NCBI GenBank assembly: GCA_946186205.1
Contig: CAMHMH010000001.1
Location: forward strand, 682,001 to 746,000
DNA: 64,000 nt
DNA from: an uncultured Fretibacterium sp.
GTDB lineage: Bacteria > Synergistota > Synergistia > Synergistales > Aminobacteriaceae
Direction of reading: 5' to 3'
In this document: piece after piece, positions 12,803 to 54,862 of the stretch
Layout: each line of letters starts with the position of its first letter
Numbering within the stretch: the first letter of the stretch is position 1
Made by a program: the position numbers and the translations under genes
The notes under the pieces: generated by a model
What the model saw: only the letters and a program-made list of their open reading frames with translations
The model's database searches: none
Told to the model about the DNA's origin: nothing

Positions 12803-14137
12803 ATGTCAGCAAGAAAAATTTTTGCCGCATTAATCCTCGTGCTTTATGCGTCGTGTTCATTCGCTGAGATTACCCCCAAGCAGGTACTCTCAGACCCGCG
12901 ATTTTATCCCCTCGTCGAGACAACAAAGAAGCATGGCAGGGAAAATCTCCCCGGGCGTTATGTCGTTACGATGGAGCTTCCCTCGCGCACAGGAGGCCCG
13001 CTGATTCTCGCTCCGACTCAAATGATTATCGAGATTGAGCAGCCTGAATCCGGAGTCCAGGTATACACATTCCATTACGATATTCACGGCGGGAAAAAGG
13101 CTGAAGGCTATATGATCCTCGACACAAAAGCAGAAGCTCCGGTGCTCTCATCGTTCACAAAAAACGAGTCGGGCGATTACGAATTATCCGGGATGTCTTA
13201 CGCGGGATTGTCGCTCTCTGAGAATGACAAAAGCTGGCTCACGGGCGCGGTGTCTGACGGCTCAATAAATATCCTGATTCCCATCAGCAATATATATTTC
13301 CCGGAAGGCTGGTACTTGGGCGCGTGGAAATGTGCTGACGGGACTCAGTTCACTTTTGACGGAGATAAAATGTACTCAAACGGGCAGGAGATCGGCACAT
13401 TCACAGCTGAGGACAACCGAATCACAGTAACAGCTTCAGACGGGAGCAAAGACACAGTTTATGCGATATGGAATCCGTACAAAGAGATTCTTGTGATGAC
13501 GTTCAGCAGCGGCCCGAATGGTATGGGAACGAACGCAGGAGTGTTTACGCGCATGAATGATTCTGAGAAGCCAGAAACGAATCGACAGCCCAGAATCGAG
13601 TCTCGCAAAACCGAATCGATAGCCCAAAATCCGACTCCCAAAAATGAACCGTTGACTCAAAGTCCGATTCATCAAAACGAAACCGTGTCCCACAAAACCG
13701 AATCGACAGCTCAAAATTTGCCTCTTAAAAATGAACCGTCGACTCAAGGTCCGATTCATCAAAACGAAACCGAGTCCCTCAAAACCGAACCGACTCCCGC
13801 GCCTAAAATGCCTACAGAATTTCCGCCAATGCCAAAAGTGAACATGCCCCCTCAGAATATCGACATCCCCCCTCAGAATATCGACATCACCGGCGTATGG
13901 GGTGCTTACGTCAACGGTCAGCAGTGGATTATTCAGTATCAGGGGAATAATTATTACGGATGGATCAACGGACAGCCTTCAGAGATGGGAATATTCACCG
14001 TGAAGGGAAAAACTATAACCGGCTCTAACAATCACGGCGTTACTTTCACGGCAGAACTTGAGCTTGACGATGACGGCGATGAGCTTGATATGACATTCGA
14101 GAACGGCAACACGATTCATTACCAGAAATTGCAGTAA
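12803..14137 (+). CDS. Exported two-domain protein with repetitive linker
   Basis: This 444-residue protein has a signal peptide at residues 1-21. A beta-rich domain spans about 22-253, and a Ser/Thr/Pro/Asn-rich linker about 254-355. A compact C-terminal domain spans about 360-444. The end of the first domain ('GAWKCADGTQFTFDGDKMY') and the C-terminal domain ('GVWGAYVNGQQWIIQYQGNN') look like related lipocalin-like modules, 'W...G..F...G..I'. The linker holds a 29-residue tandem repeat and a duplicated PPQNIDI. The linker DNA belongs to the 15/19-bp repeat family seen upstream of asd. A GGAGG site precedes the ATG and a terminator follows. No enzymatic motif is seen. Confidence 0.75.
   Translation: MSARKIFAALILVLYASCSFAEITPKQVLSDPRFYPLVETTKKHGRENLPGRYVVTMELPSRTGGPLILAPTQMIIEIEQPESGVQVYTFHYDIHGGKKAEGYMILDTKAEAPVLSSFTKNESGDYELSGMSYAGLSLSENDKSWLTGAVSDGSINILIPISNIYFPEGWYLGAWKCADGTQFTFDGDKMYSNGQEIGTFTAEDNRITVTASDGSKDTVYAIWNPYKEILVMTFSSGPNGMGTNAGVFTRMNDSEKPETNRQPRIESRKTESIAQNPTPKNEPLTQSPIHQNETVSHKTESTAQNLPLKNEPSTQGPIHQNETESLKTEPTPAPKMPTEFPPMPKVNMPPQNIDIPPQNIDITGVWGAYVNGQQWIIQYQGNNYYGWINGQPSEMGIFTVKGKTITGSNNHGVTFTAELELDDDGDELDMTFENGNTIHYQKLQ
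13611..13784 (+). repeat. In-frame 87-bp tandem duplication in linker coding sequence
   Basis: There are two copies, 13611-13697 and 13698-13784, with a third start at 13785. Each encodes 29 residues beginning TES(I/T)AQN and ending in HK/LK. Each 87-bp copy divides into 19+15+19+15+19 bp subunits marked by AAAA runs. The array upstream of asd uses the same lengths. Confidence 0.85.
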
Positions 14138-22659: not shown

Positions 22660-23391
22660 TTAATTCATGAAAGGGCTTTTGGGAGACTTGAGAGCTTTTG
22701 TCTTTTTGGTTTTGCTTCGTGATGCCTTTGATGCTTTTGCTGACTGCTTGATGTCCTTCCGTGCTTTCACTTCCGCTGCTTTTGCCTCAAGGTGCTTCAG
22801 TCTTCTTTCAGTCGGCGGGTGTGAGTTGAATCCGTCAGGCTGAGTCACAAACTTGTTGTCCTTGAATGCCTTCATTGCGTTGTAGAGTCCGTAAGGGTCA
22901 TAGCCAGCTTTCTTTAACAGCTCCGTTCCGTAATCGTCAGCTTCAACTTCCTGCTCACGTGAGAAGCCGCTCTCAATGAGTTTCGATCCGACGCTCCCGG
23001 CCGCCTGAGCCGCGACTCCTCCCCAGCCTCCGATCCTGCCGAGCAAGTTCCCCGCTACTGCCCAGCCTACAGCGCGTGAGACTCCCTTGCTGTAATGCCC
23101 GAGTCGAACGTGGCCGATCTCATGCCCTAACACGCCGGCTATTTCTTCCTCAGTGTTCAGTATCTTCATCAAGCCCTTTGTTACGTGGACGCTGTAATCA
23201 TTCTGAGACTTGAATTTTACCCAGGCATTCGGCGCGTCATTCTCCTCGTAGTTTATTGGCACCTCTTTGAAGCCGTCAGCCTTTGCTATTCTCCTCCATG
23301 CTGACTCGACGACTTCATTTGAGATTTCACCGCAGGCACATGAGCAAGACACCGCGAGAAGCATTAGAGCCGTGAAAATTTTGCGTGTCAT
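22660..23391 (-). CDS. M48 family zinc metallopeptidase, exported
   Basis: This 243-residue protein has a signal peptide with a Cys cluster ('SCSCACGE', possible lipoprotein). The zinc motif is His-Glu-Ile-Gly-His in 'VLGHEIGHVRLGHYS', and the third ligand lies in 'EVEADDYGTELL'. These are the M48 features shared with BepA/LoiP-type periplasmic proteases that handle outer-membrane protein quality control. The C-terminus is a Lys/Ala/Ser-rich tail. The gene overlaps the end of the upstream methyltransferase by 4 nt. Confidence 0.9.
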   Translation of the reverse strand: MTRKIFTALMLLAVSCSCACGEISNEVVESAWRRIAKADGFKEVPINYEENDAPNAWVKFKSQNDYSVHVTKGLMKILNTEEEIAGVLGHEIGHVRLGHYSKGVSRAVGWAVAGNLLGRIGGWGGVAAQAAGSVGSKLIESGFSREQEVEADDYGTELLKKAGYDPYGLYNAMKAFKDNKFVTQPDGFNSHPPTERRLKHLEAKAAEVKARKDIKQSAKASKASRSKTKKTKALKSPKSPFMN

Positions 23392-24167
23392 AACTTTTCC
23401 TCCTTCTTAATTTTTCGGAAATACAAGCACATTATATCTTTCGGCAGAAGATTCAAAAACGGACTGGCCGCCAAAACAGCAAGGTATGTAGCAAACTGGC
23501 TGATAACATTTCCTGCTCCGCACATTATGCGCTTTCGGAGTCCTTTTACTGTTATCGTCTTAGGGGCTGAAATGTCAGCGAGTGAAAAGCCGTAACCCTC
23601 AATGAGCCGCGTGAGATTCTTTTTGCCGAAGTACCACAAATGCGGGGAATAAAAATCTGTCTGCCACAAACGCCGCCAGTACGAATCAATCCCGAAACGC
23701 ATAAGAGTACGCGCAAGTCTGAAAAATATTCCGCTGCTGTCGGGGCAGTTGATGATGAGAAGCCCTTCAGGTTTCAGAAGCCCGGCGCATTCCCTCAGTA
23801 CAGAGTCCAAGTCCGGAAGATGCTCGAACACGTCATTGAAGATTATGAAGTCATATTGTCTGCTGGCGTTAAAGTCTTGAGGGAAGAGCCCATTGATGAC
23901 ATTAAAGCCATGTCCCTGCGCTTCAAGGCAGAAATTCTCTTCAGGCTCTATGCCGTCCATACTGATCCCGAGCTTTGCGGCCTCATCGATAAACCATCCC
24001 CGCGCACACCCGACATCAAGCCCGCAAATTTTCCCGTCTCCGAGAAGCCTGCGTATACGTGTCAGAATCTCCCGGTAATTTCCGCGCCTTAATGTTTCAA
24101 TTGAGTCCATCATTGCTTCTTCGGCTGAAGGGTTACTCGGTGAACGGAACGAAAAATTTTCAGCCAT
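23388..24167 (-). CDS. SAM-dependent methyltransferase; 5' part displaced by a TG repeat
   Basis: This 259-residue class I methyltransferase has motif I 'GLDVGCARGWFIDEAAKLGI' and the acidic 'FNDVFEHLPDLDSVL'. The conserved 'SPHLWYFGKKNLTRL' resembles glycan/lipid-modifying methylases of Methyltransf_23 type. The ATG at 24167 has a poor ribosome site. Upstream, the same frame stays open to 24302 and encodes a likely zinc ribbon ('FCSHADK...YQCKECGLY'), but it has no start codon. An ATG with AAAGGA lies at 24303 in another frame, separated by a TG tract. Adding one TG unit would join them into a 305-residue protein. The present allele therefore looks off, or gives only the truncated form. Confidence 0.75.
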   Translation of the reverse strand: MAENFSFRSPSNPSAEEAMMDSIETLRRGNYREILTRIRRLLGDGKICGLDVGCARGWFIDEAAKLGISMDGIEPEENFCLEAQGHGFNVINGLFPQDFNASRQYDFIIFNDVFEHLPDLDSVLRECAGLLKPEGLLIINCPDSSGIFFRLARTLMRFGIDSYWRRLWQTDFYSPHLWYFGKKNLTRLIEGYGFSLADISAPKTITVKGLRKRIMCGAGNVISQFATYLAVLAASPFLNLLPKDIMCLYFRKIKKEEKL

Positions 24168-24247
24168 ATACAGCCCGCATTCCTTGCACTGATATATGCT
24201 GTTCCTGCTGTCAATTAATATTTTATCGGCGTGAGAGCAAAATAAAG

Positions 24248-24283
24248 GTGTGTGTGTGTGTGTGTGTATGTGTGTGTGTGTGT
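24248..24283 (-). repeat. (TG)n/(CA)n dinucleotide repeat in methyltransferase 5' region
   Basis: On the plus strand there are ten GT units, one A, then seven TG units and a T. It lies between a well-placed ATG (24303, minus) and the zinc-ribbon codons of the methyltransferase. In the current length the ATG frame stops after 26 codons. Dinucleotide tracts of this size slip during replication and are classic phase-variation switches. Confidence 0.9.
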
Positions 24284-24394
24284 AGGATAGCTTTTTCAGT
24301 CATGAGTGTCAAGTCCTTTGTCAAAAATTTTGCCGCCATCTTCAGCGTTAAAGACAGCGGCATTTAGTTACGAGTATCAGTGTTTCAGGTTATG

Positions 24395-26728
24395 TTACAG
24401 CGGAGTAACTCCCAGCACTATGCACGCGGCAATCGCAAGGATACTTACGCTCCATATCCACACAAGCGAGTACTTTATATGTTCGCCCACGTCAATCTCA
24501 AGAAGTCCCAGACCTAAATACATTGCCGGGCTTAACGGGCTAATCATGACTCCGACGTTCTCAGCCACAAGAAGCACGCACGCAACATCCATCGGGTTCA
24601 CTCCGAACTGCGAGGCGATTCCAACAACAACAGGAAGAAGCCCAAAGTAGAATGAGTCAGTACCCAAGCACATAATCAGCGGCACCGCGAAGCACGCAAC
24701 TATGAAGTGTGTGTAGCGTCCGAGATCAGGCGGGATTACCGTAACTACTGCTGAGGCCATCGCGTTAAGCATTCCCGTACCGCTCAATACTCCCGTGAAG
24801 ATTCCCGCAGCAAACAGCGTTACAACCATCGACATCGCCGCAACGCCGTAATTCTTGAGTTTCCCGTTCTGCTCCTTGAGGCTCTTAATGTTGAACGGGA
24901 GAGTCAGAGCAAGCGCAAGCATGAACGTGTACGCAGGGTTAAGAAGACCCATCATCAACACAACGATTACCGCGACAACTACAAAGAAGTTCCAGTACTG
25001 AAGACCCGTCGAAACTTTCGGCTTGTTGTCGTCAGCCTTTGCTGCTGTCTCTTCTACTGCTGAGTCATCTGCTGTGAGTCCGAGCTTCTTTATTCTCCTC
25101 TTCTGTATGCCGCTCTGAAGAATCGCAACCACGAACGTTATCACAAGCATAAAGCCCTGAACAGGAAGCAATCTGTGCCACAAAATATTGGGGTCTGTCT
25201 CAAGAACTGTCGCCGCTCTGATTGTCGGGCCGCCCCAAGGACATACGTTCATTACGCCGATCGCAACGCACACAAGCATCATTAACGCTCTGTTGTCCAT
25301 CTTCAGCTTCTTGAACAGAGGAAGCATAGCCGTTATCGTGATGATGAATGTTGTTGCGCCGGAGCCGTCAAGATGTCCGATTACTGCAACTGCCGCCGTC
25401 GCGCAAAGAACCGCCGTTACGTTTGTTCCTGCCTTCTTGATGAGGAAATTCACAACAGGGTCAAAAACTCCCTGATCTGACATCAGCGAGAAGAACGAAA
25501 TCGAGAACACGAACAATGACACAGTAGAAACCATCTTGCTTATGCCGGAAGCCGCGAACTTGTTTATGACAAGCGGGTCAAATCCTGCAATCAATGCCGC
25601 GATTGTCGGAAGGAGTATGAATGCCAGAGGAGGAATTACGATCTTCTTGATTAAGCAGACGATGAGAACGAGAACCATCACGAAGCCGATTATTGCGAGT
25701 TTCGGTGACGGTGCTGCTTTGGGAGTTGCTTTCTTTGAGTCCTTTGCGGGCTTCAGCATGTCGGTGAATGTCTTGTACTCGTCATCCATAATTTTCTGGT
25801 ACTCTGCAGCGGGCGCGAAGCCGGGTCTCTCGTCATAAGCTCCGCGAATAAGGAACTCTTTCCATGACTCAGACTTTGTTGCTTCCTCGATTGCTTTCGA
25901 CATTGCGTCGATTGCGGGCTGAGGTGTTCCCTTCTTGGCAAAAATTCCCCTCTCAGGCCCTAAGAACGCATTGACTCCGATTTCGCCAGATGCCTGCACA
26001 TTAGGATAACGCCTCATAGGATTTCTTGAGAGCGCAAGAAGCGGAACAACTTCCCCGGTTGCTATGAGGTCTTCAATCTCATCTGTTCCCGTAATCATCA
26101 AGTCAATCTGCCCTGCCTTGAGAGCGTCATTCATGCTTGCTCCGTTGGGGTATGACACTTCAAGAACGTTGAGACCCTCAAGAGCCTGCCGCATTGATAT
26201 ACCGTCAACACCCGTGCTTGTGAGCATTCCCACGCTTATGCTGAACGGATGAGACTTCACGAACTCGCGCATTTCCGTGAAATTCGTATAGCCGCGTTCC
26301 TCCATTGCCTTGCGTGATGCCGCTATTATGTTGATGGCATTGACGAGCCTCGCGACCGGGACAAACTCATCCTTGAACTTGTAGGGCATAGCTCCCTGTA
26401 CGTCCATTGCAAAAAGACTCTGAGTCCCAAGCATGAACGTATAGCCGTCCGCGGGTTTCTCTCGTGTGAAGGAAGCTCCGTTTACACCGCCGTTGCCTGT
26501 GATGTTGACGACTTCAACTTCCTGGCCGAGCTCCTTTTTCAGCAGGGGGATTAACGCACGGAGAGTCGAATCTGCTCCGCCTCCCTCGCCCCAAGGACAT
26601 ACGACAATGATTTTGCGGTCAAATTTCCACTCTGATGATGCCGGGCTTGACTCATCAGCAGCGAAACATGCGCCGAAAATCGACAGCGCGAATAATGCAG
26701 TGAGTACTACAAATGCAAAACGCTTCAA
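24395..26728 (-). CDS. Fusion of TctC-type substrate-binding domain and CitMHS-type permease
   Basis: This is a 777-residue protein. Residues 1-24 form a signal peptide. Residues about 35-325 match the TctC/Bug binding-protein family ('VVCPWGEGGGADSTLRALIP', 'KPADGYTFMLGTQSL', 'FAKKGTPQPAIDAMSKAIE'). From about 345 to the end is a multi-pass permease like CitMHS citrate-metal/H+ symporters ('GHLDGSGATTFIITITAMLP', 'NVCPWGGPTIRAAT'). A cytoplasmic acidic loop lies near 580-600. Such a one-chain arrangement would tether the binding protein outside the membrane beside its permease. The substrate is probably a di- or tricarboxylate. The TTG start has GAGGAGG eight bases upstream. It is divergent from asd. 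Confidence 0.85.
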   Translation of the reverse strand: MKRFAFVVLTALFALSIFGACFAADESSPASSEWKFDRKIIVVCPWGEGGGADSTLRALIPLLKKELGQEVEVVNITGNGGVNGASFTREKPADGYTFMLGTQSLFAMDVQGAMPYKFKDEFVPVARLVNAINIIAASRKAMEERGYTNFTEMREFVKSHPFSISVGMLTSTGVDGISMRQALEGLNVLEVSYPNGASMNDALKAGQIDLMITGTDEIEDLIATGEVVPLLALSRNPMRRYPNVQASGEIGVNAFLGPERGIFAKKGTPQPAIDAMSKAIEEATKSESWKEFLIRGAYDERPGFAPAAEYQKIMDDEYKTFTDMLKPAKDSKKATPKAAPSPKLAIIGFVMVLVLIVCLIKKIVIPPLAFILLPTIAALIAGFDPLVINKFAASGISKMVSTVSLFVFSISFFSLMSDQGVFDPVVNFLIKKAGTNVTAVLCATAAVAVIGHLDGSGATTFIITITAMLPLFKKLKMDNRALMMLVCVAIGVMNVCPWGGPTIRAATVLETDPNILWHRLLPVQGFMLVITFVVAILQSGIQKRRIKKLGLTADDSAVEETAAKADDNKPKVSTGLQYWNFFVVVAVIVVLMMGLLNPAYTFMLALALTLPFNIKSLKEQNGKLKNYGVAAMSMVVTLFAAGIFTGVLSGTGMLNAMASAVVTVIPPDLGRYTHFIVACFAVPLIMCLGTDSFYFGLLPVVVGIASQFGVNPMDVACVLLVAENVGVMISPLSPAMYLGLGLLEIDVGEHIKYSLVWIWSVSILAIAACIVLGVTPL

Positions 26729-26839: not shown

Positions 26840-27085
26840 TTTTGACTCGTTGATTCGGTTTTGACTCGCACGGTTTCGACTTGCCGATGCGCTTTTGACT
26901 CATAGACTAGGTTTTGACTCGCTCAGTTTTGAGTTATCGATTCGTTTTTGACTCGTCCGATTTTGATTTGCCGATTCGCTTTTGACTCGTAGACTCCGTT
27001 TTGACTCGCACGGTTCTGACTTGCCGATTCGCTTTTGACTCATCGACTAGGTTCTGACTCGTTCGGTTCTGACTTGTCGATTCGT
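26840..27085 (+). repeat. Ordered array of 15- and 19-bp direct repeats (TTTTGACT units)
   Basis: Fourteen units each begin TTTTGACT or a close variant, e.g. TTTTGACTCGCACGG (15) and TTTTGACTTGCCGATTCGC (19). The boundaries at 26840, 26859, 26893, 26912, 26946, 26980, 26999, 27033, 27052 and 27086 give exact steps of 19 or 34 (15+19). The array fills most of the 418-bp gap between the divergent transporter and asd genes. The only other features seen there are the two promoters. No ORF or hairpin explains it. Confidence 0.9.
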
Positions 27086-27097
27086 TTTTTGCGTGAA

Positions 27098-51597: not shown

Positions 51598-52035
51598 ATG
51601 CGAAAAATTTTTGCGGCAATTGTTTTGTTGATGTCTTTGTGTGTTCCTTCATGGGCTGATTATGACGTGAACGAGCCGCATGTTATCATCAACCAGATTT
51701 TCGGCGGCGGCGGCGGTTATGTCTCTCACAGTTTCATTGAGCTGTATAACCCGACGGACTCAGACGTTAATCTTGAGGGATGGGCGTTGCATTACAGATC
51801 TGCGCCGGAAGACACAGCTTCATCGGATAAGTGGTACATGACGGAGCTGACTGGCACAATTCCTTCTCATCATTCGTATTTGATTCTCGGCGGTGAAGAC
51901 TCAGCGTTCGCATCTTCAGAGTATAATAGCAGCGAAAGAACCCTCAGCGAGTACGACAAAATACTTACAGGGGGGGGGGGGGTCAAGCGTAATTTACACG
52001 AAAGGTGTATCAGTAATTCTCACATCAAATCATGA
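51598..52035 (+). CDS. Lamin-tail-domain N-terminal part of LTD/CotH protein (frame broken at G13)
   Basis: The gene starts at an ATG with AGGAGG upstream. It encodes a signal peptide ('FAAIVLLMSLCVPSWA') and a lamin-tail domain ('VIINQIFGGGGGYVSHSFIE', 'LYNPTDSDVNLEGWALHY', 'IPSHHSYLILGGED'). At the G13 tract the frame runs out of homology and stops 18 codons later. Removing one G joins it to the downstream frame to give a single 1087-residue protein (3264 nt). The 145-residue product seen here is therefore the off form or an artefact of homopolymer sequencing. Confidence 0.85.
   Translation: MRKIFAAIVLLMSLCVPSWADYDVNEPHVIINQIFGGGGGYVSHSFIELYNPTDSDVNLEGWALHYRSAPEDTASSDKWYMTELTGTIPSHHSYLILGGEDSAFASSEYNSSERTLSEYDKILTGGGGVKRNLHERCISNSHIKS
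51970..51982 (+). repeat. Run of 13 G inside the LTD/CotH gene
   Basis: Thirteen consecutive G residues encode Gly-Gly-Gly-Gly in frame. With 12 G (or 15) the LTD frame continues into the CotH frame as Thr-Gly4-Ser-Ser-Val. Poly-G tracts of this length are typical contingency-locus switches, but they also collect sequencing errors. Confidence 0.92.
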
Positions 52036-54862
52036 GGAAATCCCTTCCGACTCAGAAATTTTTGACAACACGACTCACACACCAATCATAACAGGCTATG
52101 TAGATATGCTCAGTGCCGCCGGAAATGATTACGGCAAAGCAGGAAAAGAAGCCCAAGCACCAACAGCATACGAATCAAACTTCAGCGCGTTAATGTCAAA
52201 GAAGAAAGGCGTTCGGCGCGTGAAATTCCAAGACACAGACGACAATTCAGTAGACGCAGAAGCAACTGACTATTCAGCAGGCGACGTGTCAATAATATTC
52301 CCTCACTCGACATCATTCGGATCGTGGGACGAAACAACAATGATTGTCGCGGAAATAAATGCTGTGCGTAAATCCGTTCCGAAATTCTACGAGACTTACT
52401 GCACACAAGAGACCGTTACAACTTTGTCGGCAATACTGACTCAGATCGATACGGCTATAAGTGAGAGTGATACGGACTCGCTTGTGAGTCTGAAGACGAG
52501 TCTTGAGGAAGCATTGAAGAATGTCGCGTATAAATCTGACAGCAAGATAGCTCAGGTTTACGTTGCGACGGACAAAGGCGACGGGACTTCTTACGGCACA
52601 GATCCTTCAACGGGCCTCAAGAAGGCGGACGGGTATGTTCCCGCGCAGATGGTTGTTGTGAGCACTGACGGGGGAATCATGGCCGAGGATCTTTCTTGGG
52701 CCGGGCAGATTAAGGTTAGGGGAAATTCTACGGCAGGTTACGCAAAGAGACCGTATAACATGAAGTTTTCAAGCAAAGTTGATTTGTTCGGCTTCGGAGC
52801 GTCAAAGAAGTGGACTCTTCTTGCAGACTATCTTGACCCTACGTTAATGAGGAACAAGACAGCCCTTGACCTTTCCGAAATTCTCGGACTCGATTCGACA
52901 ATGGCGCATCAGCATGTAGAAGTGTGGGTTGACGGTGAATATCGCGGAATGTATCTGCTCACGGAAAAAATTGAAGCAGACACGAACAGGGTAAACATAA
53001 ACACAAAGAACGGCGATTTTATTTTGGAATTGAATACTTCACGAACAGATGAAGACAGTGTGTATGTTACATCAACAGTACAAAAAATGCGCTTTGAATT
53101 GTGCGAGCCTGAAGAGCCTACTGACACACAGAAAACAGCAATTATTGCGGCATTAGATAAATTCGAGACAGCTATAAAATCAGGAACATGGGATGAAGTT
53201 GAACAGATTATTAACGCAGAATCTTTTGTTTCATACTATATTCTGAGTGAGCTGGCAAAACAATTAGATTTTTCCGGAGCTTCAGTTTTCTTCTACTATG
53301 CTGACGGTATTTTCTACGCTGGCCCGGCATGGGATTACGATAACGGAGTCGGCAATGTTACGCATAAGGTAGCTGGATCGACAGAAGGAATTTTTGCGGG
53401 GGTGCGTCATTACTATTCATATCTGACAAAATTTACGGAGTTTCAGCTTGCTGTTTCTGAAAAAATGCGGCAGGTGTCTAATGCAATCACAAAAATTTAC
53501 GAGAATAATGGACTCATAGATAAATATGTCGCCTTTTACTCAGATGCTATTAGCAGGAATAATACGAAATGGAATGTTAGCATAGCACGTAATACATGGA
53601 TAAGGACACCAGATCCAACCTACGAAGAAAATCTCACGTTCCTAACTGACTGGTTATCAGCCCGCTATGACTGGATGACTGATTACTTCCTCAACCGCAC
53701 ATTCATCTCTTCAGACACATTCCCGGACTCAACCCTCCTCGAATACGCAAAGACACTCGACACTGACTCAGACTCCTTCCTCAGTTCAGCCGAGAAATTA
53801 TCCGTAACATCAATCGACCTCAGCGGCATGAATCTCTCCTCGCTGAATCTCGCAGGGCTTGAAATCTTTACGCAGCTTCAGAGTCTCGACCTCACTAACA
53901 ATCCATTGCTGACTCATATTAACATTCAGGGCTTCACGAGCCTCAATATACTTCACGATGACACACTGAGCCTTGCTGACGGCGTGCCATCATTCAGCAA
54001 ACATTCTCTTGTGTTAAGCGGGCAGATCGGAGTCGATTTCTACGTAACAATCCCGGAAGGCATTGACACAGAAGGAGCATACGCAGACTTCACGGTCAAC
54101 GGCAGGACAGGAACACCGGCCATGTTAAGCAACGCTGTAAAAACAGAGAGCGGCGATTACATGTTCACGTGCTACATTAACTCCGTCCAGATGGCTGACA
54201 CTATCACAGCAGCGTTCCATTACGGCAATGATGAGACAATCACGAATGAATACAGCGCGAAAGATTATCTTGACACTGTGATTAATGACGGCACTTATCC
54301 CGAAAAGCTCGTGAACCTCGTGAAGGCCATAAAAGATTTCGGGCATTACGTTCAAAAACCGCTCGCAGATAATAACAACTGGACAATCGGCACTGACCAT
54401 CAAGAAATGGACTATGCAAATGATGACATTCTTTCTGACAGCGAAGAGATTAAAGCATCACTTTCAGCCTACGAAATATCTAGGGACTTCAGCGGAACGG
54501 GAATCGAGTCGCTTATGTTTGACCTTGAGCTTGAGTCCGAGACAACAATAAACATTTACCTTTACCCGGAAAAAGATTACGCGGGCGCGGTGAATGCGTA
54601 TCTTGAAGGAAGCAGCGCAAACATGGCCGTGAAACAGCAGGACGGGAGCTACAGAATCACAATAAGCGGAATCTCTGCGCACCTTCTCGGCGAGACTCAA
54701 AAGATTAATGTTGAGGCTGAAAAGAATTTTGCCATTGAAGTTTCTGCGTTGTCGTATGCTTATGCGGTGATAAAATCATCAGAGGATGAAAATCTGAAGA
54801 AGGCCGTTACTGCCCTGTACAAATATTATGACGCAACTGTAAAATACAGGGTCGAAGACTGA
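51983..54862 (+). CDS. CotH-kinase part of LTD/CotH protein (downstream of frame break)
   Basis: These 959 codons continue the same protein in the shifted frame. The lamin-tail domain finishes by about 52330 ('SKKKGVRRVKFQDTDDNSVD'). A CotH kinase domain follows at about 52660-53700 ('GQIKVRGNSTAGYAKRPYNM', 'LLADYLDPTLMRNKTALDL', 'YRGMYLLTEKIEADTNRVN', 'GPAWDYDNGVGN'). An EF-hand/dockerin-like loop ('DTDSDSFLSSAE') with leucine-rich 'LQSLDLTNNPLLTH' comes next, then two beta-rich modules. CotH proteins are atypical kinases of secreted substrates. The 53.0-53.6 kb stretch is more A/T-rich than its surroundings. No good start of its own is seen, so expression depends on the G tract. Confidence 0.85.
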   Translation, partial: SSVIYTKGVSVILTSNHEEIPSDSEIFDNTTHTPIITGYVDMLSAAGNDYGKAGKEAQAPTAYESNFSALMSKKKGVRRVKFQDTDDNSVDAEATDYSAGDVSIIFPHSTSFGSWDETTMIVAEINAVRKSVPKFYETYCTQETVTTLSAILTQIDTAISESDTDSLVSLKTSLEEALKNVAYKSDSKIAQVYVATDKGDGTSYGTDPSTGLKKADGYVPAQMVVVSTDGGIMAEDLSWAGQIKVRGNSTAGYAKRPYNMKFSSKVDLFGFGASKKWTLLADYLDPTLMRNKTALDLSEILGLDSTMAHQHVEVWVDGEYRGMYLLTEKIEADTNRVNINTKNGDFILELNTSRTDEDSVYVTSTVQKMRFELCEPEEPTDTQKTAIIAALDKFETAIKSGTWDEVEQIINAESFVSYYILSELAKQLDFSGASVFFYYADGIFYAGPAWDYDNGVGNVTHKVAGSTEGIFAGVRHYYSYLTKFTEFQLAVSEKMRQVSNAITKIYENNGLIDKYVAFYSDAISRNNTKWNVSIARNTWIRTPDPTYEENLTFLTDWLSARYDWMTDYFLNRTFISSDTFPDSTLLEYAKTLDTDSDSFLSSAEKLSVTSIDLSGMNLSSLNLAGLEIFTQLQSLDLTNNPLLTHINIQGFTSLNILHDDTLSLADGVPSFSKHSLVLSGQIGVDFYVTIPEGIDTEGAYADFTVNGRTGTPAMLSNAVKTESGDYMFTCYINSVQMADTITAAFHYGNDETITNEYSAKDYLDTVINDGTYPEKLVNLVKAIKDFGHYVQKPLADNNNWTIGTDHQEMDYANDDILSDSEEIKASLSAYEISRDFSGTGIESLMFDLELESETTINIYLYPEKDYAGAVNAYLEGSSANMAVKQQDGSYRITISGISAHLLGETQKINVEAEKNFAIEVSALSYAYAVIKSSEDENLKKAVTALYKYYDATVKYRVED

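Follow-up and report, generated by a model that had tools for sequence, protein, structure and literature searches.

A TG dinucleotide tract behind the start codon of a putative envelope methyltransferase gene in Fretibacterium: a probable contingency switch

The 64,000-nucleotide stretch of an uncultured Fretibacterium sp. genome analysed here (the window) carries, on its minus strand, a methyltransferase gene whose reading frame is separated from its likely start codon by a long TG tract, which we consider probably a translational dinucleotide contingency switch, presently in the OFF position and known from one assembled sequence. In the proposed mechanism, ribosomes would start at ATG 24303, and the CA repeats that follow seven codons downstream would change in number by slipped-strand mispairing. 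About one repeat number in three would place the methyltransferase body in frame and the other two would end translation early, so that expression would be reversible. The ON product would be a protein of 305 residues in which a His-Thr run at the N-terminus precedes a zinc ribbon, and the assembled copy would be one unit short of it.

The tract (24248..24283, the limits also given by TRF) consists, on the plus strand, of (GT)10 at 24248-24267, a single A at 24268 and (TG)7 at 24269-24282, plus a T at 24283; the coding strand reads it as CA repeats. No other (GT)10 occurs in the whole 2,754,062-base genome. In a 464-kb sample, made up of 400 kb of the genome taken in stretches plus the window, the other dinucleotide arrays have five units at most, and five Markov simulations of the same length never produced an array of more than six units. 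With 10 and 7 perfect units and one interruption, the tract exceeds the cut-off of six or more units that has been used for dinucleotide phase variation (PMC6321876). That it is unique and non-random favours a switch; conversely, the interrupting A should lower slippage, and the other simple sequence repeats (SSRs) of the genome are poly-G tracts rather than dinucleotides, both of which weigh against one.

The position of the tract relative to the reading frames is what would allow it to act on translation. An ATG at 24303-24301 on the minus strand, preceded at a distance of 10 nt by AAAGGA (24314..24319, minus strand), a candidate ribosome-binding site, opens a frame of 26 codons that begins MTEKAIL and enters the CA repeats (24223..24303, minus strand), reading MTEKAILHTHTHTHTHTHTFILLSRR and then a stop. 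The methyltransferase frame (23388..24299, minus strand; 303 codons and a stop) passes through the same tract stop-free and contains no ATG, GTG or TTG before 24167; from that first in-frame ATG it would encode only 259 codons (23388..24167). The two ATGs lie 136 nt apart, which leaves a remainder of one when divided by three, and therefore the frames join when the tract gains 2 nt (one TG unit more) or loses 4 nt (two units fewer), giving 918 nt. The tract thus separates a start codon from a downstream frame that is open, and changes in unit number switch the frame. The first-pass annotation had described this arrangement, including the short frame, the open frame lacking a start and the joined product of 305 residues, and our coordinates, translations and arithmetic agree with it. 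We disregarded a plus-strand frame across the region (24059-24367, VCVCVC...), which the repeat generates as a by-product.

The body of the encoded protein matches PF13489 (Methyltransf_23; E 6e-23, 81.8 bits against a curated cut-off of 27), with weaker matches to UbiG-type methyltransferases in NCBIfam and PDB, all below the NCBIfam cut-offs. A homologue search of the order (183 genomes) returned four proteins that match most of its length at 33-35% identity (31-35% among full-length homologues). All four have a ribbon at the N-terminus, C-x-V-C ... C-x2-C, after which Y-M occupies the position of the internal Met of the window copy (ATG 24167). Because the ribbon lies upstream of that Met in the homologues, translation of the natural protein begins ahead of ATG 24167, and the alignment indicates that the missing N-terminus of the assembled frame is real. 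This result removes one of the two outcomes that the first-pass annotation named as refuting, namely that homologues all begin at the internal Met. The start would be expected a few residues ahead of the first cysteine, in agreement with ATG 24303 and its seven codons. The repeat itself falls between the start and the first cysteine, in a leader that is short and variable and where additional residues would do the least harm; the order-level homologues in the alignment are without it. That an ATG with AAAGGA stands where the homologues start, with the repeat in the variable leader, is a further argument for a switch.

The ribbon of the window copy is degenerate. The zinc ribbon that had been proposed just ahead of the annotated ATG is present (24177..24239, minus strand; C-S-H-A ... 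C-x2-C, with Cys codons starting at 24239, 24188 and 24179), but it keeps only three of the four cysteines of the homologues, the second being replaced (S-H-A); a four-cysteine ribbon (C-x2-C...C-x2-C) ahead of the SAM domain was not found in this copy. Destruction of the first ribbon cysteine by the repeat was considered and rejected, as the spacing in the alignment makes the cysteine of the window copy the first one and the second the missing one. The loss of one zinc ligand counts against a switch. As for function, the enzyme is a class I SAM methyltransferase, which would most likely act on a cell-envelope sugar or lipid. The homologues L059 and L061 adjoin polysaccharide deacetylase and ATP-grasp genes, while the window copy lies between a transporter and a peptidase gene; the neighbours of these homologues may favour an envelope-sugar role without proving it, and such a role would in turn favour a switch.

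A protein could instead be made from ATG 24167, without the N-terminus, from a transcript beginning in the repeat, which would then be a leader that perhaps tunes transcription. The promoter required for this was noted earlier as a TTGACA/TATCCT pair 18 nt apart extending to 24283; the pair exists, but its spacer is 17 nt and its span 24312-24284 (24284..24312, minus strand). It matches 10 of 12 positions, has the ideal spacer, lies directly before the repeat and would start transcription inside it, downstream of ATG 24303, which, if the promoter is genuine, speaks against the proposed switch. In addition, one of the relatives described below keeps the same Met with its ribbon deleted. Set against these points, 1.8 such promoter-like matches are expected in the 1.3 kb scanned, so that the count does not exceed chance; the repeat lies outside the hexamer pair, so its length leaves their spacing unchanged; ATG 24167 lacks a good ribosome site, the nearest AAGGA being 13 nt before it, which is too far; and the ribbon precedes this Met in every one of the full-length homologues. 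We therefore regard a short protein of this kind as improbable.

The gene lies in a conserved setting. Upstream is a TctC-CitMHS transporter fusion (24395..26728, minus strand) with a terminator-like hairpin (24331..24362, minus strand) similar to hairpins in relatives, and downstream is an M48 peptidase gene (22660..23391, minus strand) whose ATG overlaps the methyltransferase stop (ATGA). Because of this overlap, it is possible that the OFF state would also lower expression of the peptidase by polarity.

Among 43 genomes of the genus, only three carry the methyltransferase gene, that of the window, G027 (68-69% identity) and G022 (71%), in each case between the transporter and the M48 peptidase genes; in at least 15 other congeneric genomes the transporter is followed directly by the peptidase gene. 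The copies of both relatives are damaged. In G027, the LYMAVN codons follow immediately on the transporter terminator, such that the ribosome site, start and ribbon are gone while the internal Met of the window copy is kept; a further loss, of about 37 codons, lies close to the C-terminus. In G022, the terminator is retained and is followed by an equivalent AAAGGA (L004/L033), and a deletion takes the start, the ribbon and the region of SAM motif I. The tract was not found at the same place in these two orthologues, in which that part is deleted. Thus, the gene either is in the course of being lost from the genus or was gained and is unstable.

These observations bring forward the next best explanation after a switch, namely that this is a dying accessory gene in which microsatellite growth in an unselected leader recently broke the frame, the repeat having no regulatory role. 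The retention of the gene in 3 of 43 genomes, the deletions in both relatives, the many genomes that pass straight from transporter to peptidase and the missing ribbon cysteine are all in accord with decay, and the rarity of the gene and the absence of repeat and N-terminus from the relatives also tell against a switch. The window copy itself is less easily reconciled with decay. Its sole lesion in 303 codons is the frame at the repeat, and, if dead, it would have died very recently. In comparison with G027, dN/dS is 0.21/1.54 over 194 codons, and in comparison with G022, 0.19/1.41 over 162 codons, a ratio of about 0.14 against both relatives that is rough, as dS is near saturation. The methyltransferase body is, by this ratio, under strong purifying selection. 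The intact body and its selection, together with the retention of AAAGGA in G022, favour a switch. Moreover, comparably long dinucleotide tracts are absent elsewhere in the genome, so that one directly behind a start codon is an unlikely product of drift, and SSR tracts of the switch type abound in the genome. The contingency switch proposed in the first-pass annotation is accordingly borne out in its anatomy, start codon, missing N-terminus and genomic company of contingency-type repeats, while the copies of the two nearest relatives are repeat-less, deleted and dead-looking; on account of those relatives decay stays a serious rival, to which we give somewhat better than a one-in-four standing.

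The repeat number itself bears on a further reading, in which most cells express the gene and the assembled count is one unit off, as a consensus or through an assembly error. Miscounting, or averaging in a consensus, can affect such tracts, and the ON state is only a single unit away; such an error would nevertheless itself imply variation in the population or technical slippage, and we hold this reading to be very unlikely.

Other repeats in the window and in the relatives were also surveyed. Where readable, none of the dinucleotide tracts of G005, G022, G027 and G032 interrupts a gene body. GT repeats of 7-10 units occur in a recurring intergenic element of three species (L179, L190 and L195 in G005, L180 in G022, L181 in G027), which begins near GGTATAAT and has a GATACAG-like word after the repeat; unlike the tract of the window, this element is non-coding. 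The window also contains tandem arrays at 26840-27089 and 13597-13888, with units of 53/87 and 87/21 bases, respectively, that are rich in GACTC/GAGTC. No copy of the flank of the repeat was found in a viral contig collection.

Poly-G tracts are abundant in this lineage (loci L128-L157 and L158-L177). The genome of the window has about 20 poly-G/C runs of 9-19 bases, the long ones exceeding the Markov simulation, and runs of G12 or longer are found in 33 of the 43 congeneric genomes and in 11 of 20 genera of the family. In the genome of the window, such tracts lie inside genes for Caps_synth, GT2, HsdS and LTD/CotH (a lamin-tail surface protein); in relatives, they lie in genes for a fucosyltransferase-like GT10, GT1 and a UDP-sugar dehydrogenase, and an FkbM methyltransferase gene carries a G14 after 28 codons. 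Where open frames flank a tract on either side (20 cases), the reading frame is maintained across it in 9 and broken in 11. Five tracts were found between promoter-like hexamers, where 0.8 would be expected. The wealth of poly-G tracts in surface-type genes of the genome and genus favours a switch at the TG tract, since it makes a long SSR close behind a start codon in this genome more likely, a priori, to be one.

Some features of the poly-G tracts are recorded here in their own right. The frame offsets of the 20 intragenic tracts are 0 (nine), +1 (ten) and +2 (one); one of the out-of-frame states is thus short, unlike the outcome of random slippage, and some of the tracts are orthologous and so not fully independent. 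Of 31 non-redundant tracts of at least 11 G, 7 have the word TACGTA no more than 25 bases away, against 2 of 469 G5-G6 flanks, and the flanks are also AT-rich, with GTAA/TTAC. Within the window itself (51598-54862, plus strand), a G13 (51970-51982) separates two frames, one of 124 aa with a signal peptide and a lamin-tail domain and one of 959 residues for a CotH kinase. At the corresponding position, the orthologues of five further species carry G13, G14, G16 or G9 or, in G010, GGGGTGG in place of a tract. In each of the six genes the two frames are out of register, and five of them share one offset. The arrangement could reflect phase variation, programmed frameshifting or a fixed split.

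Several known systems resemble the proposed switch. In Mycoplasma mycoides, the gene for the MmyCI type III methylase contains (AG)n, with AG12 being OFF (translation stops at once) and AG10 in frame and active (PMC3498834); as in the window, a dinucleotide tract inside a methyltransferase gene sets the frame, but MmyCI methylates DNA and has been seen with two tract lengths, while the window gene belongs to a small-molecule or envelope type and is known with one. The oipA gene of Helicobacter pylori has 5' CT dinucleotide repeats (PMC10564699) that likewise fix the frame of everything downstream; its product, however, is an outer membrane protein, and its switch status is documented across strains. 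In Campylobacter, SAM methyltransferases are among the phase-variable genes identified with PhasomeIt (PMC6321876), again as SSR-switched SAM-dependent enzymes in genomes with many such genes, although there the tracts are poly-G, dinucleotides being a small minority, and variation between strains has been shown. By analogy, these precedents would favour a switch here. With PF13489 enzymes that carry an N-terminal zinc ribbon, the window gene shares the fold family and the ribbon of its homologues; it differs in being one ribbon cysteine short and in having a His-Thr repeat region before the ribbon.

More tentatively, the locus may belong to an extensive and apparently undescribed phasome of this bacterial family that would switch surface-sugar, restriction-specificity and surface-protein genes by means of poly-G tracts (and here a TG tract), and the TACGTA-like signature flanking poly-G may hint at a dedicated process that creates or maintains the tracts; at roughly one chance in four, we offer this as a conjecture. 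A literature search combining Synergistetes and phase variation returned nothing relevant. If the switch is real, this lineage would use slippage switches on envelope genes in the manner of Campylobacter, Neisseria and Helicobacter, and the methyltransferase would be one of few to be switched by a dinucleotide. The genus-wide survey of poly-G tracts offers many more loci at which the claim of a switch can be checked from reads alone.
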